This document shows, in pieces, positions 17,627 to 22,556 of a stretch of DNA of 35,155 nt. The stretch is from the NCBI GenBank assembly GCA_019721075.1, contig JAHEAD010000019.1:1-35155 (forward strand), read 5' to 3'. Position numbers and translations under genes: made by a program. The notes beneath the pieces were generated by a model. It worked only from the letters and a program-made list of their open reading frames with translations, had not been told where the DNA came from and made no database searches. Source of the DNA: Candidatus Sysuiplasma jiujiangense (GTDB lineage: Archaea > Thermoplasmatota > Thermoplasmata > Sysuiplasmatales > Sysuiplasmataceae). The first letter of the stretch is position 1. Each line of letters begins with the position of its first letter.

Positions 17627-18310
17627 TCAGCTGCAGCAGACAGCTGATTCCAGTTTTCTGTATGAATAGACGGCTGAAAAAAGCATCAGCAGCGTGAATG
17701 CGATATTGTCCAGGATCTGATAGGTGTATGACAGTGCATAGAGTGCGCCGGTCTGTGACAGTGAAAGGTGAAAGAGCGACACCGCTGCGATCAGTCCGAA
17801 CGGAGCATAGCAGCAGCTGCCGCTGAATACTGCAGGTATGACTGATGCGAGACTGGCCATGCCGCTTCTGCCCGAGGATCTCCGGCGGCGGATAAGCCCT
17901 GCAAATATCAGCATGTTGACGGCAAAGAGCAGCGACAGCACCGTCGAGAAGAATAACGGCCCAATGAGGAGACTGAGCATGAGGTTAGGCGTGACGAACC
18001 AGAGCAGGCCGGATTCGTAGACGTTTGCGGGATACTGCCAGTATGCAAGGAAGTTGACAACGATCGGATTCGTTCCTCCCGCCGAGATAACCTGCGAAAG
18101 CGCATTGTAGCTGAAGTACGCAATGATGCCTGTGCTCATAGCATAGAGGAGCCAGTAACCGGCCAGTGAAGCCAGGAAAAGGATCCTGCCGCCGGCAGTC
18201 CTCAGGGAGTGATGCACGAATGCGCGCAACATGCGCATTGTGTCCACTGCCTTTATCCTCCCCGCATCACGGGTGAATGCTGTCCCTGAAACCGTGTTGC
18301 CCGCAGACAT
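17627..18310 (-). CDS. Membrane protein with intramembrane Cys-Cys, candidate metal (Hg) transporter
   Basis: A 227-residue polytopic membrane protein of no family I can name. Hydrophobic helices lie at about 42-68, 103-140 (probably two), 152-182 and 190-216. The helix at 152-182 carries SGSC166-C167-YAPFGLIAAV, close in pattern to the first helix of MerT (S-T-C-C-x-x-P...), where the Cys pair takes up Hg(II). The protein also ends in VCCS (C225-C226), like the C-terminal pair of MerF. It is downstream of the MerA gene and the small CC protein on the same strand, so a mercury or related thiophilic-metal transport role is inferred. The N-terminal 40 residues are cytosolic and basic. ATG 18310 is the first in frame. 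Confidence 0.65.
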   Translation of the reverse strand: MSAGNTVSGTAFTRDAGRIKAVDTMRMLRAFVHHSLRTAGGRILFLASLAGYWLLYAMSTGIIAYFSYNALSQVISAGGTNPIVVNFLAYWQYPANVYESGLLWFVTPNLMLSLLIGPLFFSTVLSLLFAVNMLIFAGLIRRRRSSGRSGMASLASVIPAVFSGSCCYAPFGLIAAVSLFHLSLSQTGALYALSYTYQILDNIAFTLLMLFSAVYSYRKLESAVCCS

Positions 18311-18621
18311 GGTCAGTCAGACCCGCCTGTTTCCGTATCTCTAACTGTGCAATATGTCTTTGGCATCTTCAGCAGATTTAATTTAAATCCGGCATTAGTC
18401 CGACGGCCATCAAATCGGCGCATAAACCGGCGGACACCGCAGTTATTCCGAGACACAGACCACCTCTGCTCCATTTTAACGATATGTTCTGCGTTATCGG
18501 CCGTCCCGGGCTGCGTGGCATTGTATCCTTTCAGTGTGGAACACTTCTGTTTCATATCAGCCCCCGCCGCAATGAATATCAGTTTTAAATCCGGTTTCAG
18601 GCAGGTTCAGTCTGCACCCGG
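18311..18621. other. Intergenic, no gene supported
   Basis: About 310 bp between the two Cys-Cys membrane-protein genes. Short open frames on both strands (for example 80 residues on the minus strand) lack motifs and ribosome-binding sites. AT-rich TTTAAAT sequences near 18370 and 18584 might be promoter elements; nothing else is seen. Confidence 0.35.
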
Positions 18622-18819
18622 TCATTTTTCGCCGTTCCTGTTCTTATTCACGAAGATGGAAAGAATCAGCGGGATTGCACAGCAACCGAACAGAGCGATC
18701 ACAACAGCTACAGTACCAAGAGCAGCGCCGAACCCGGCGGCGTAATTACGGCCGGCAACAAAGAGCAGAGCGAGAAAAACCAGTATTGCGGCAGCAATCG
18801 TCAAGTACCTTGCCCTCAT
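18622..18819 (-). CDS. Small two-helix membrane protein with intramembrane Cys-Cys (MerF-like)
   Basis: A 65-residue protein with two hydrophobic helices (about 5-24 and 32-57). The second contains FGC46-C47-AIPLILSIF, a vicinal Cys pair followed two residues later by Pro. This is the arrangement seen in MerT, MerC and MerF, small inner-membrane carriers that hand Hg(II) to MerA. The size and two-helix layout are closest to MerF. ATG 18819 has GGTGG 6 nt upstream. It follows MerA by 90 nt on the same strand. Homology to MerF is not demonstrated; the inference rests on the motif and on position. Confidence 0.65.
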   Translation of the reverse strand: MRARYLTIAAAILVFLALLFVAGRNYAAGFGAALGTVAVVIALFGCCAIPLILSIFVNKNRNGEK

Positions 18820-18908
18820 TAAAAACCACCATACTGCCAGTCCGCCATTTTATTTCCCTGCTTCCCCATTTATCGCCGTTAATGCCGTGGCCTGATTTTT
18901 GTCACATT

Positions 18909-20351
18909 TCACTCCACGCAGCAGCTCATTGTTTCCACATCTCTCACGAACGCCTGAGATGCAATCTTGATGCTCTCTGCAAGCGTAGGGAACACGTGTG
19001 TTGTGTTGATTATGTCGTCGTACGTCAAACCCAGTTTGACCGCTGTTGCCGCCTCCATTATGTATTCGGTTGCCAGTGGTGCAAGAATCTGAGCTCCGAC
19101 AATCTTGTTGTTCGAGGGATTTGCCACCAGCTTTACCAGCCCCTCTGTATCATTGAGTATTCCTGCCTTCGGAACGCGATCAAGACTCAGCGAGCTGACC
19201 GAACATGAGCCAAGCATTCTCGTGACCTCCTCCTCGGTAAGCCCGACAGCCGCTATCTGCGGATTTGTGAACACGGCCCATGGTACTGCCGCATAGTCTA
19301 TCTGCATCGGGTGACCGAGCATGTTGCTTGCAGCCACCACTCCTTCGCGCCCGGCCAGCGTTTCAAGCATCAGCTTCTTCGAAATACAGTCGCCCGCGGC
19401 ATATATGGAGGAATTCGTAGTCCGCATTGAGCTGTCGGTCCTTATGAAACCGCGGCTGTCGGTTGCAACCTTTGCAGCTTCCAGATTGAGAAGTTCCGTG
19501 TTCGGAGCTCTGCCTGTTGCCACAAGCAGCGCATCGCTGCGCACCTCACTCCTGCCCGCTGCAGTAATGACCTCCGTTATCTGTTCATCGCCCTTCTTTT
19601 TCACCCTGTTGATCCTTGCTTTGATGTAGAATTTCATCCCCTCGCTCTCGAGCCTTCTCTGCAATAGTTCAGAAATATCGCCATCCGCCTGGGACATTAT
19701 CCTCGGCATGGATTCCACGACGGAGACCTCCGTTCCAAAGTGGCTGAAGGCCTGACCGAGCTCGAGACCTATCGCACCGCCGCCTATAACCGTAAGCCTG
19801 TCCGGTCTTTCATTCAGATTCCACACTGTATCGCTTGTAAGGTAGTCCACTGCATCCAGTCCCTCGATCGGCGGCGCAGTCGGTCTTGATCCCGTTGCAA
19901 CAAGTATCCTGTCCGCGGCGTATGTTACGCCACTGTGTCCGTCATTGCCATTCGCTTGGGAAATTATTTCCACTTCGCCAGAGGATACGAATCTAGCCTT
20001 CCCCTCGAATACAGAAACGTTCGGATAACCGTCTATTACTGTTTCATACTTGTCCCGTCTCTGTTCCTTTACCAGCTCCCTCAACCCGGACATCATACTG
20101 CCGAAGTCAAGTTTTGGATGCGTCTTCCCTATGCCGGTGAACGAGGGATGGGCAGGGTAATACAGGCTGTGGGAAGCCTCAAGAAGGTATTTGGAAGGCA
20201 CGCACCCGACGTTGACGCAGGTTCCGCCCATCGGGCCGCTCCCAATCATTGCTATGCTGTCCTCGCCCCCGGATATCTCGGTGAGTTTAATGGCAGCAGA
20301 AAAAGCCGCAGCACCCCGGCCAATTATGATGTCATCGAATTTTTGGGTCAT
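18909..20351 (-). CDS. merA: Mercuric reductase (MerA) without N-terminal HMA domain
   Basis: A 480-residue FAD/NAD(P)-disulfide oxidoreductase that reduces Hg(II) to Hg(0) with NADPH. The redox-active pair is C45 and C50 in GGTCVNVGCVPSK, the exact MerA form. The NAD-binding motif GGGAIGLELGQAFSHFG and FAD-binding AAGDC are present. The protein ends MSCCVE, and this C-terminal vicinal Cys pair (C477-C478) is the MerA hallmark that separates it from lipoamide dehydrogenases. It lacks the fused N-terminal HMA domain found in many bacterial MerA proteins; that domain is encoded by the next gene upstream. ATG 20351 is preferred; TTG 20360 abuts the HMA stop codon. It is co-transcribed with the HMA gene and probably the two CC membrane proteins. 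Confidence 0.9.
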   Translation of the reverse strand: MTQKFDDIIIGRGAAAFSAAIKLTEISGGEDSIAMIGSGPMGGTCVNVGCVPSKYLLEASHSLYYPAHPSFTGIGKTHPKLDFGSMMSGLRELVKEQRRDKYETVIDGYPNVSVFEGKARFVSSGEVEIISQANGNDGHSGVTYAADRILVATGSRPTAPPIEGLDAVDYLTSDTVWNLNERPDRLTVIGGGAIGLELGQAFSHFGTEVSVVESMPRIMSQADGDISELLQRRLESEGMKFYIKARINRVKKKGDEQITEVITAAGRSEVRSDALLVATGRAPNTELLNLEAAKVATDSRGFIRTDSSMRTTNSSIYAAGDCISKKLMLETLAGREGVVAASNMLGHPMQIDYAAVPWAVFTNPQIAAVGLTEEEVTRMLGSCSVSSLSLDRVPKAGILNDTEGLVKLVANPSNNKIVGAQILAPLATEYIMEAATAVKLGLTYDDIINTTHVFPTLAESIKIASQAFVRDVETMSCCVE

Positions 20352-20360
20352 TGTTTTCAA

Positions 20361-20603
20361 TCACCGCTCTTTGATCGATGCGCTGTAGTGGGAGGGAGGC
20401 CTGAATATCCTGAGGGCAAGTATATCATCCGGTTTCACCCTTTCCGGTTCATAGACAACATTCGCGTCTCCCGTCTTCAGGTCGACCTTTGCATCCGTCA
20501 CACCGTCAAGGCTCAGTATTGCCTTCTTCACGTGCATAACGCAGTCCTGGCAGGTCATGCCCGAAACACGCAACATGACAGATTCACGATGATTTTCGTT
20601 CAT
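20361..20603 (-). CDS. Free-standing HMA (MerP-like) metal-binding protein
   Basis: An 80-residue heavy-metal-associated domain: LRVSGMTCQDCVMHVKKAI carries the M-T-C-x-x-C metal site, followed by the usual GVTDAKVDLKTGDANV strand pair. There is no signal peptide, so unlike MerP it is cytosolic and more like the detached N-terminal domain of MerA. The C-terminus ends in a short basic tail (PPSHYSASIKER). It sits directly upstream of merA (9 nt between stop and ATG) and is the first gene of the operon. It probably delivers Hg(II) or protects against it before reduction. Confidence 0.85.
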   Translation of the reverse strand: MNENHRESVMLRVSGMTCQDCVMHVKKAILSLDGVTDAKVDLKTGDANVVYEPERVKPDDILALRIFRPPSHYSASIKER

Positions 20604-20638
20604 GATTGAATTTGAATCATTAATTGCTAAATAAACCG
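20602..20638 (-). promoter_or_regulatory. Promoter and candidate operator of the mer-type operon
   Basis: On the minus strand a TATA-like GGTTTATTTAG (20628-20638) lies about 25-35 nt ahead of the HMA start codon at 20603, consistent with a leaderless transcript. An inverted repeat ATGATT-N7-AATCAT (20602-20620) covers the start region and could bind the divergent HxlR-type regulator. Confidence 0.45.
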
Positions 20639-20830
20639 AAAAGCGTCATTTTCTGAATGTGCTTCAAATTTTCGAAGCAGGCTAAATTTTCTGGACCATA
20701 TCCGAAAACAGTCTGAAGAATGAGGCGCAATTTCAGTTGCTGTCACGGCTACCGTGGATGGAACTGCCGGTGATGCACTTCGACCGTCACAGGCAGTGCA
20801 GTTATCTGGACTTAATCCAATTTTTTAAAG

Positions 20831-20850
20831 TATATTAAAAGCTTAATATA
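20831..20850 (+). promoter_or_regulatory. 20-bp palindrome over the regulator's TATA box
   Basis: TATATTAA-AAGC-TTAATATA has perfect 8-bp arms and includes a TATA element about 25 nt before ATG 20864. A palindrome on top of TATA is a classic autorepression layout in archaea: a regulator bound here would block TBP. Confidence 0.6.
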
Positions 20851-20863
20851 AGTGTGTCCTCAT

Positions 20864-21241
20864 ATGACATCCTGTATGGTAAAAGCAAAAGAGAATGCAT
20901 GCATGATAATGCACGATTCGAGGGAAATATGCATTCTTCCGTCTGAATCGGTGCTGAAACTGATCGGAAAGAGATACACGCTTCTTATTATCGGACTCCT
21001 GGGCAACGAGAGAAGCATGCATTTCAATGAGATACTCCGGAGCGTGGGAGCTGCCAGATCCAACCTGATCTCGCAGCGCTTCAAGGAGCTTGAGTCTGCG
21101 GGTCTTGTCGATAGACGGATAATCAATACCCGTCCTGTAGGCGTGGAGTACTCACTGACGGAAAAAGGTCTCGAGCTAAGGGAACAGCTGATTCCGTTGT
21201 TTGACTGGATCGAAAAGTCGTCCGGTGCTAAACCGAAATAA
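20864..21241 (+). CDS. HxlR-family winged-helix regulator, Cys-rich N-terminus (probable metal sensor)
   Basis: A 125-residue regulator. ICILPSESVLKLIGKRYTLL is the typical HxlR opening (C-x-x-x-x-x-[VL]-x-x-[IL]-x-[GK]-[KR]-[WY]). It is followed by the helix-turn-helix HFNEILRSVGAARSNLISQR and the wing RPVGVEYSLTEKG. The N-terminus before the domain is unusually rich in Cys, Met and His, so a thiol-based response to mercury or oxidants is plausible. It is divergent from the HMA-merA operon, separated by 260 bp. ATG 20864 suits the TATA box; GTG 20852 would add MCPH in front. No MerR-type regulator is present. Confidence 0.8.
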   Translation: MTSCMVKAKENACMIMHDSREICILPSESVLKLIGKRYTLLIIGLLGNERSMHFNEILRSVGAARSNLISQRFKELESAGLVDRRIINTRPVGVEYSLTEKGLELREQLIPLFDWIEKSSGAKPK

Positions 21242-21453
21242 AGTACCGAATTTTCCGTTTATCATTCCGGTTGCGCTTCTCTTTGAATTGAAGCGTGTAA
21301 ACAGGTTGCGCCTGAAATTCAGTTCACTTATCGCCTGCGTTCCATGACTGTATTCGGCACATCATGAACATCATGAATTTCCGCGGCTGTATATTCATGC
21401 TCCCGCACCTGCTGCCACATGCATGTTGTTTTCATGGACGAATCATGATCGAA

Positions 21454-21906
21454 TTATCTTTCATTGGAATTTTTGTGAAAATTCGGGCCGGCGGCGTTCG
21501 CCCTCTCCGCCTTATTCAATGTGCCTCCGCATTTTCTGGAGCTGATGAAATAGGCGGCTGCCGCAATGATAAACTGTACGGCAAGCCCTGCATAGTACTG
21601 TGAGACAGGAACAACATATCCCGCCCCCTCGTTTAGTGTCGGACCAATATGGTGGCCGCTTGCCAGTGCTCCAATTAGCCAGAAGAGATTCCAGAAGCTT
21701 TCCGCAAAGAATATGACGGAAACGGAAAACAGGACTGAGCCAGTCCTCTCAAGAGCGACGCCGCCGATAATCAGTATCAGCAGATTGAGACCGACATAAT
21801 AAAGCAGCGGGATTGAGAGCAGCGAGCTGAGATCAACCAGGGCTATTCCGAGTCCTGCGGCAATGGACGCCGCCAGGAATAGACTCTCCGGCGATGCTGC
21901 CCTCAT
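21454..21906 (-). CDS. Four-helix membrane protein of unknown function
   Basis: A 150-residue protein with hydrophobic helices at about 6-24, 28-50, 55-80 and 100-121 and a basic cytosolic tail (SSRKCGGTLNKAERANAAG). I recognise no family motif. ATG 21906 lies 4 nt after the stop of the GtrA-like gene, so the two are a tight pair and probably function together in the membrane. The conserved-looking FFAESFWNLFWLIG helix has an acidic residue and aromatic side chains. It might take part in glycolipid or polysaccharide handling through its neighbour, but this is a guess. Confidence 0.6.
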   Translation of the reverse strand: MRAASPESLFLAASIAAGLGIALVDLSSLLSIPLLYYVGLNLLILIIGGVALERTGSVLFSVSVIFFAESFWNLFWLIGALASGHHIGPTLNEGAGYVVPVSQYYAGLAVQFIIAAAAYFISSRKCGGTLNKAERANAAGPNFHKNSNER

Positions 21907-21910
21907 TTAC

Positions 21911-22369
21911 CTATATCCCGACCTTCCAGACGATAACGGATGAGAGATAATAGTCAACGGGAGTGGCGACAACCGAGGCGACCAGCGTACCTATAAGCGG
22001 TTCCAGGGCAAGATAAGCGAGAAGCAGAATTTGAATGCTGATTATGATTGCGTTCCCGGCTGCATTTACGCCCTGAAACGCAACAATCCGTTTAACCAGC
22101 GATTTGCCGGCAGCGCCCGCAGATACACGGTTCCCGAATGTCCAGTATTCATTGAGCAGGAAAGCAACAAATGTGCTTGACACGGCGGCGGCAATATCTA
22201 TGAAGAGTATGCTGCCTGTGGCAAGAAGCCGCAGTCCGGTGAATAAAATCGCTTCAAAAAACAGGAAACCCGCGAAACCGGAAATGGAATACCTGTATCC
22301 TCTGGACCAGTTTCTCCTGAGCAGGGCTGATATGCTCCCGATGCGGAGGTGAGGCGTTATACTGGACAT
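21911..22369 (-). CDS. GtrA-like membrane protein
   Basis: A 152-residue four-helix protein. RYSISGFAGFLFFEAILF, the central AFLLNEYWTFGNR stretch and the closing VDYYLSSVIVWKVG match the GtrA/DPMS-accessory family (G-x-x-G in helix 1, F-x-x-N-x-x-W-x-F after helix 2). These proteins are thought to flip or present polyprenyl-linked sugars for cell-surface glycosylation. ATG 22369 gives the usual length; a GTG at 22423 would add 18 residues. It is coupled to the unknown membrane protein downstream. No glycosyltransferase is next to it in the window. Confidence 0.75.
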   Translation of the reverse strand: MSSITPHLRIGSISALLRRNWSRGYRYSISGFAGFLFFEAILFTGLRLLATGSILFIDIAAAVSSTFVAFLLNEYWTFGNRVSAGAAGKSLVKRIVAFQGVNAAGNAIIISIQILLLAYLALEPLIGTLVASVVATPVDYYLSSVIVWKVGI

Positions 22370-22556
22370 CACAATTTCATACTTTGTTGGACCGATGCAA
22401 ATCTCTTCGATATGAATTTCCACCGGCAGTCGCTTCTGCCTTGTTCATTGCAGAATGTGTCATCCTCTCATGCCTGAAGACCGGGGAATGCCCTCGCTAT
22501 TCTTTCAGCTTTGTCCTGAATGCCGGGGGTGACCGTCAGACACAAATAGTAATAAT

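Follow-up and report, generated by a model that had tools for sequence, protein, structure and literature searches.

A CysCys membrane protein encoded behind merA in Candidatus Sysuiplasma jiujiangense is a candidate Hg(II) importer from a two-branch Thermoplasmata family

The mer cluster of Candidatus Sysuiplasma jiujiangense encodes, behind merA, a 227-residue membrane protein (p227) that we propose as the membrane Hg(II)-uptake or transfer part of an archaeal mer system, MerT-like but with no detectable MerT homology; we put the probability of this reading at roughly 0.52. The cluster lies in the window, i.e. the whole stretch of 35,155 nucleotides of contig JAHEAD010000019.1 that was analysed, and the proposal builds on gene order, family membership, cysteine conservation and purifying selection, all of which were observed directly. 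By sequence comparison, p227 is a member of a genuine, small, unnamed Thermoplasmata family with two branches, and the chief competing reading has copper or another soft metal in place of Hg(II). A published survey found archaeal mer operons without known Mer membrane transporters (PMC3466566), which makes p227 a testable candidate. In this acid-loving archaeon, p227 and the smaller membrane protein p65 may fill the mercury-uptake job that is missing from archaeal clusters according to the literature; together with a third family (A4, below) they provide named candidates for the route of Hg(II) to archaeal MerA.

Gene order and conservation of the mer cluster

The four open reading frames of the first-pass annotation were all recovered at their positions on the minus strand (Table 1). 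An 80-aa open reading frame at 18313-18555 was rejected as a gene: this DNA consists of the 3' flank of p65 and the 5' flank of p227, and it matches relatives piecewise.

Table 1. Features of the mer cluster in the window, and A4-family genes located at other Thermoplasmata loci
Feature	Position	Strand	Match or conservation
HMA metal-binding protein, 80 aa, GMTCQDC	20361-20603	minus	PF00403, 61 bits
MerA mercuric reductase, 483 aa	18909-20360	minus	TIGR02053, 530.4 bits (cut-off 454.45)
p65, membrane protein with two helices, C46-C47 in the second (FGCCAIP)	18622-18819	minus	
p227, four-helix membrane protein, candidate Hg(II) importer	17627-18310	minus	
HxlR-family regulator, Cys motif ACMIMHDSREICIL, candidate Hg sensor	20852-21241	plus	PF01638, 62 bits
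Inverted repeat TATATTAA-N4-TTAATATA, candidate operator/promoter	20831-20850		Block invariant in five mer loci
TATA-like GGATTTAAATTAAATC, possible p227 promoter	~18375-18400	minus	Mostly conserved in L001
A4-family members	L095:355-900, L078:2239-2850, L100:2604-3194, L092:7392-8006, L089:1861-2424		

MerA exceeds the TIGR02053 cut-off and carries both cysteine pairs first ascribed to it, in the active site CVNVGC and in the C-terminal tail MSCCVE; the HMA protein is indeed encoded by a separate gene 5' of merA. The same annotation had taken the HMA domain to be usually fused to MerA and its separation to be a novelty, and neither holds for this class. Among 300 Thermoplasmata genomes, 61 encoded a MerA above the cut-off, and in the 61 MerA loci that we read in 60 stretches, a separate HMA gene touched merA or lay just 5' of it 41 times, an ordinary arrangement also in view of the merA plus merP reported for acid-mine-drainage plasmas (PMC3750248). 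A merP homologue has also been reported for Ferroplasma acidarmanus (PMC3466566). The HMA protein of the window scored 36.1 bits against the MerP model TIGR02052, far under the cut-off of 92.55, and no hydrophobic lead or export signal was visible by eye in its N-terminus (MNENHRESVMLRVSGMTCQDC); it is therefore better viewed as a detached NmerA. One genome of another family (G067) has two MerA genes with a transposase in between (L089:3996-9783), the second of which has a CMNVGC site and the end SKASCYVE, i.e. an altered CysCys tail, and is accompanied by an HMA protein that has lost the CxxC.

The archaeal mer arrangement of Sulfolobus is merH-merA-merI. Like that arrangement and the merA plus merP of the plasmas (PMC3750248), the window pairs its archaeal merA with a distinct gene for a small metal-binding protein; unlike these systems, it has extra CysCys membrane proteins and an HxlR regulator, and a MerH/TRASH gene was not seen in it.

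The smaller membrane protein, p65, has two hydrophobic stretches (hydropathy) with a single CysCys in the second, and the earlier description of a Cys-Cys inside a helix followed by Pro was correct. It had no match above cut-off in Pfam or NCBIfam, none to MerF in these databases at E 0.1 and no HMM match to MerT (PF02411). It resembles MerF in being short, with two helices and a membrane CysCys followed by Pro, and differs from it in giving no HMM match and in having a single CysCys, located in helix 2. All clear homologues that we found were at merA loci, in the window, on three G001 contigs and in the sister genus (G004), representing two genera. Short CysCys membrane proteins of another Thermoplasmata family lie directly 3' of merA at L078:5396-5884, L081:3746-4066 and L100:5696-6064, and one of the three gave a sub-threshold MerT match (E 0.046).

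The nearest named records to the window were contigs of Ca. S. superficiale, also a Thermoplasmata archaeon. On a 5.3-kb contig of this species the order HxlR, HMA, MerA, p65, p227 is the same as in the window, and p227 breaks off at residue 102. Compared with this locus, dN/dS was 0.07 for MerA and 0.14 for HMA, and values of 0.20 for p65 (0.15-0.20 over all estimates) and 0.24 for p227 (first 102 codons) denote purifying selection on both membrane proteins. A third contig of the Ca. S. superficiale bin is a 91% copy that stops before p227 would start. Another contig of that bin, L052 (G001:C55), matches window positions 18596-22372 with 99.4% identity over 3.8 kb and ends before the start of p227, a near-identity across species that reflects either recent transfer or cross-binning; the bin also contains 89-91% copies. 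In the sister genus, the mer locus holds HMA-MerA-p65 without p227. Around 8400-9500 of L019 (G001:C13), a decayed merA 3' end is followed by a decayed p227 with a disrupted CysCys region, and this remnant is located near lut genes, as is the cluster in the window.

Regulator and candidate operator

An HxlR gene was found near merA in 35 of the 61 Thermoplasmata loci; among the tabulated matches, 25 of 34 were divergent and upstream of merA and 33 of 34 had the two-Cys motif. HxlR is a candidate archaeal Hg sensor that would replace MerR/ArsR, and in the cluster of the window the divergent regulator, with its paired cysteines, probably controls the genes. Between HxlR and HMA lies a block that is invariant across five Sysuiplasma-family mer loci and includes a perfect inverted repeat, and TATATTAAGCTTTTAATATA is a candidate target DNA of HxlR. 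Among the papers searched, none contained both "HxlR" and "mercuric reductase".

Sequence and predicted structure of p227

All four cysteines of p227 occur in two adjacent pairs, C166-C167 (SGSCCYAP) and C225-C226 (CCS end), an arrangement that four randomly placed cysteines would show with a probability of 2e-4; the helix pair followed by Pro and the C-terminal pair were thus both present as first described. The C-terminal pair is so far unique to the window protein, being absent from relatives, and the Ca. S. superficiale copy ends before it. The view that p227 does not look like any named Mer transporter was supported, with no family above cut-off in Pfam or NCBIfam and no HMM match to MerT (PF02411). 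Nothing was found by a genome-wide search for MerT in the host, a search that likewise gave no match in control genomes.

AlphaFold predicted four helices for p227 using 13 sequences (pLDDT 73.7, pTM 0.66). The prediction using 8 sequences was poor (pLDDT 51), and we used the 13-sequence model instead for a fold search, which gave no significant match in the PDB. That model confidence rose (pLDDT 51 to 74) once the CysCys homologues were included fits with their being true homologues. In the model, helix 3 is broken at 167/169, that is at C166-C167, just ahead of Pro170. Loop 2 has five K/R (+5) and loops 1 and 3 have zero, a charge pattern that would place both ends of the protein inside.

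Two branches of the p227 family

The search for p227 homologues proposed by the first-pass annotation yielded a CysCys branch and also CysCys-less homologues in cytochrome-oxidase clusters, which had not been foreseen. The CysCys branch was seen in eight genomes, among them Sysuiplasma, G067, G301, G263, G327, G413 and G385, with the homologues outside Sysuiplasma belonging to other families. The respiratory branch consists of seven proteins of the Sysuiplasma family, all without CysCys, whose neighbours are COX1, COX2, CtaB/UbiA, cytochrome b, Rieske or DUF1404 genes. Using hhalign, a profile of four CysCys homologues matched the window p227 over the membrane region with a probability of 97.9 (E 4e-13) and the eight-sequence set with an E-value of 1e-16. 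Across 13 sequences, S100, G101 and W104 of an SG..W..T motif are invariant and T107 nearly so; the CysCys is aligned in helix 3, with C166, C167 and P170 invariant in A6. p227 is like the membrane proteins of about 200 aa in Cox clusters of Sysuiplasma relatives in family, motif and helix layout, from which it differs by its CysCys and by its neighbours, theirs being COX1/COX2, CtaB, Rieske and DUF1404 genes. With these CysCys-less paralogues, nature provides a control for what the cysteine pair contributes.

We built a tree from five near-full-length CysCys rows and seven respiratory rows, omitting the CC columns, and one branch separated the two sets (support 100/99.6); the tree is unrooted, so gain and loss of the CysCys are indistinguishable in it, and the exact place of the window p227 is less sure owing to its long branch. 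Grouping p227 with the respiratory copies of the same genus was rejected (p-AU 0.004). These results bear on the idea of p227 as a passenger that arose by duplication of a respiratory-cluster protein and has no mercury role, as might be suggested by its paralogues in oxidase clusters, within its genus and within its own genome (L020), its absence from the sister-genus mer locus and its decayed copy in G001. We consider this improbable given the separation from the respiratory copies in the tree, the CysCys common to p227 and its merA-adjacent relative, and the purifying selection.

Linkage to merA and other genomic contexts

The first-pass annotation had raised the possibility of homologues occurring mostly without merA. 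This is not so for the CysCys branch, in which all eight genomes carry a MerA above the curated cut-off, while direct adjacency was found in two lineages only: Sysuiplasma (two species, plus the G001 remnant) and, independently, G067, whose homologue follows merA on the same strand after a gap of 27 bp. Like MerT, p227 is located in a putative mer operon in both lineages, where it follows merA. By a hand count, MerA is present in about three quarters of the sampled f17 genomes; since it is common in these families, its co-occurrence with p227 is only mild evidence, and we rejected it as proof of a role.

The CysCys homologues of G301, G385, G263, G327 and G413 are not adjacent to merA. That of G413 overlaps by 26 bp a CopZ-type gene (zf_CopZ + Fer2_BFD + HMA), that of G263 precedes a same-strand ArsA ATPase gene by 164 bp, and that of G327 is split across two contig ends. 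The overlap with a CopZ-type chaperone gene, the presence of the CysCys-less branch in COX1/COX2/CtaB/Rieske clusters, which require copper, and the fact that CysCys motifs can bind both Cu(I) and Hg(II) would all fit p227 being an importer or transfer protein for copper or soft metals in general, with an ancestral function in metal supply, that settled beside merA by chance. Two separate placements directly behind merA, the occurrence of p65 only with merA and the MerA found in all CysCys genomes argue against it, and on balance we regard this explanation as rather unlikely.

In f17, the G327 member and A4 adjoin a thioredoxin-like gene, and a DUF929 gene is also next to the G327 member. Such neighbours would suit membrane thiol-redox proteins with a CcdA- or DsbB-like role, by which p227 and its CysCys relatives would hold MerA, HMA or exported proteins in the reduced state. 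The pair is however adjacent (CC) and mid-membrane, not a CxxC, and a thioredoxin gene was not seen in the Sysuiplasma mer locus, which leaves this role very improbable.

Proposed mechanism of Hg(II) uptake

We return to p227 as a mercury importer, the reading that we favour, in which topology, metal, direction of transport, transfer relay and regulation are all deduced. Hg(II) from outside would bind the vicinal C166-C167 where helix 3 breaks, ahead of Pro170, and would then be handed to the C-terminal C225-C226 on the cytosolic side, from there to the CxxC of the stand-alone HMA protein, and from HMA via the C-terminal CysCys of MerA to CVNVGC, where it would be reduced with NADPH to Hg(0). 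The step through C225-C226 is the least certain, because this pair was seen in the window p227 only. The p65 hairpin, with its one membrane CysCys, may serve as a second, MerF-sized conduit or as a helper. Hg(II) relays of this manner are known for MerT and MerA. p227 is like MerT (PF02411) in its place beside merA, its vicinal CysCys within a helix ahead of Pro, and its additional Cys pair, presumed to be cytosolic. It is unlike MerT in having four helices instead of three, the CysCys in helix 3 instead of helix 1, the second pair at the C-terminus, a length about double that of MerT and no HMM match.

The suggestion that p227 is a new type of Hg(II) importer thus gains from homology, context, predicted topology and cysteine placement, which fall short of proof. 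Several observations speak against it: most CysCys homologues do not adjoin merA and p227 is missing at the G004 mer locus; the partner in G413 carries a copper-type annotation; the respiratory branch indicates that the p227 fold can serve without a CysCys; and the C-terminal CysCys is limited to the window protein. p227 may also be transcribed separately, given that its 311-bp distance from p65 includes a TATA-like TTTAAATT conserved with a relative, and a promoter of its own would likewise count against the importer.

Direction cannot be read from sequence and a CysCys relay is symmetrical in principle, so p227 could also be drawn as an exporter of Hg(II) or Hg-thiol adducts. We consider export highly unlikely: a Pfam search of p227 revealed no energy-coupling domain, the CysCys mer membrane proteins are, to our knowledge, importers, and there is no need for export beside a cytosolic reductase.

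Other CysCys families of Thermoplasmata

Membrane proteins of about 190 aa with a CysCys-Pro motif ("ALCCTPxIP") form a further unnamed family, A4 (Table 1). Nine of 19 A4 matches, in eight genomes, were within 3.5 kb of merA. A4 is like p227 in being a CysCys-Pro membrane protein that is often near merA, in other Thermoplasmata. Homology between the two was tested and was unsupported (hhalign probability 3-58%), as was homology of p227 to A2, a 269-aa CysCys protein of oxidase clusters. A membrane protein of 268-269 aa with the motif GGA(S/T)CCISLPD, for which there is no Pfam family, was observed in sister-genus oxidase clusters (L018:10071-10880, L016:6023-6829).

It is conceivable, and we say so tentatively, that Thermoplasmata evolved their own Hg(II) importers, the transporter and sensor sides having each arisen separately around a common core of MerA and HMA. 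One importer would then have come from an oxidase-linked membrane family, A4 would be another near merA, and many loci would use a Cys-containing HxlR. In f17, A4 is accompanied by a thioredoxin-like gene.
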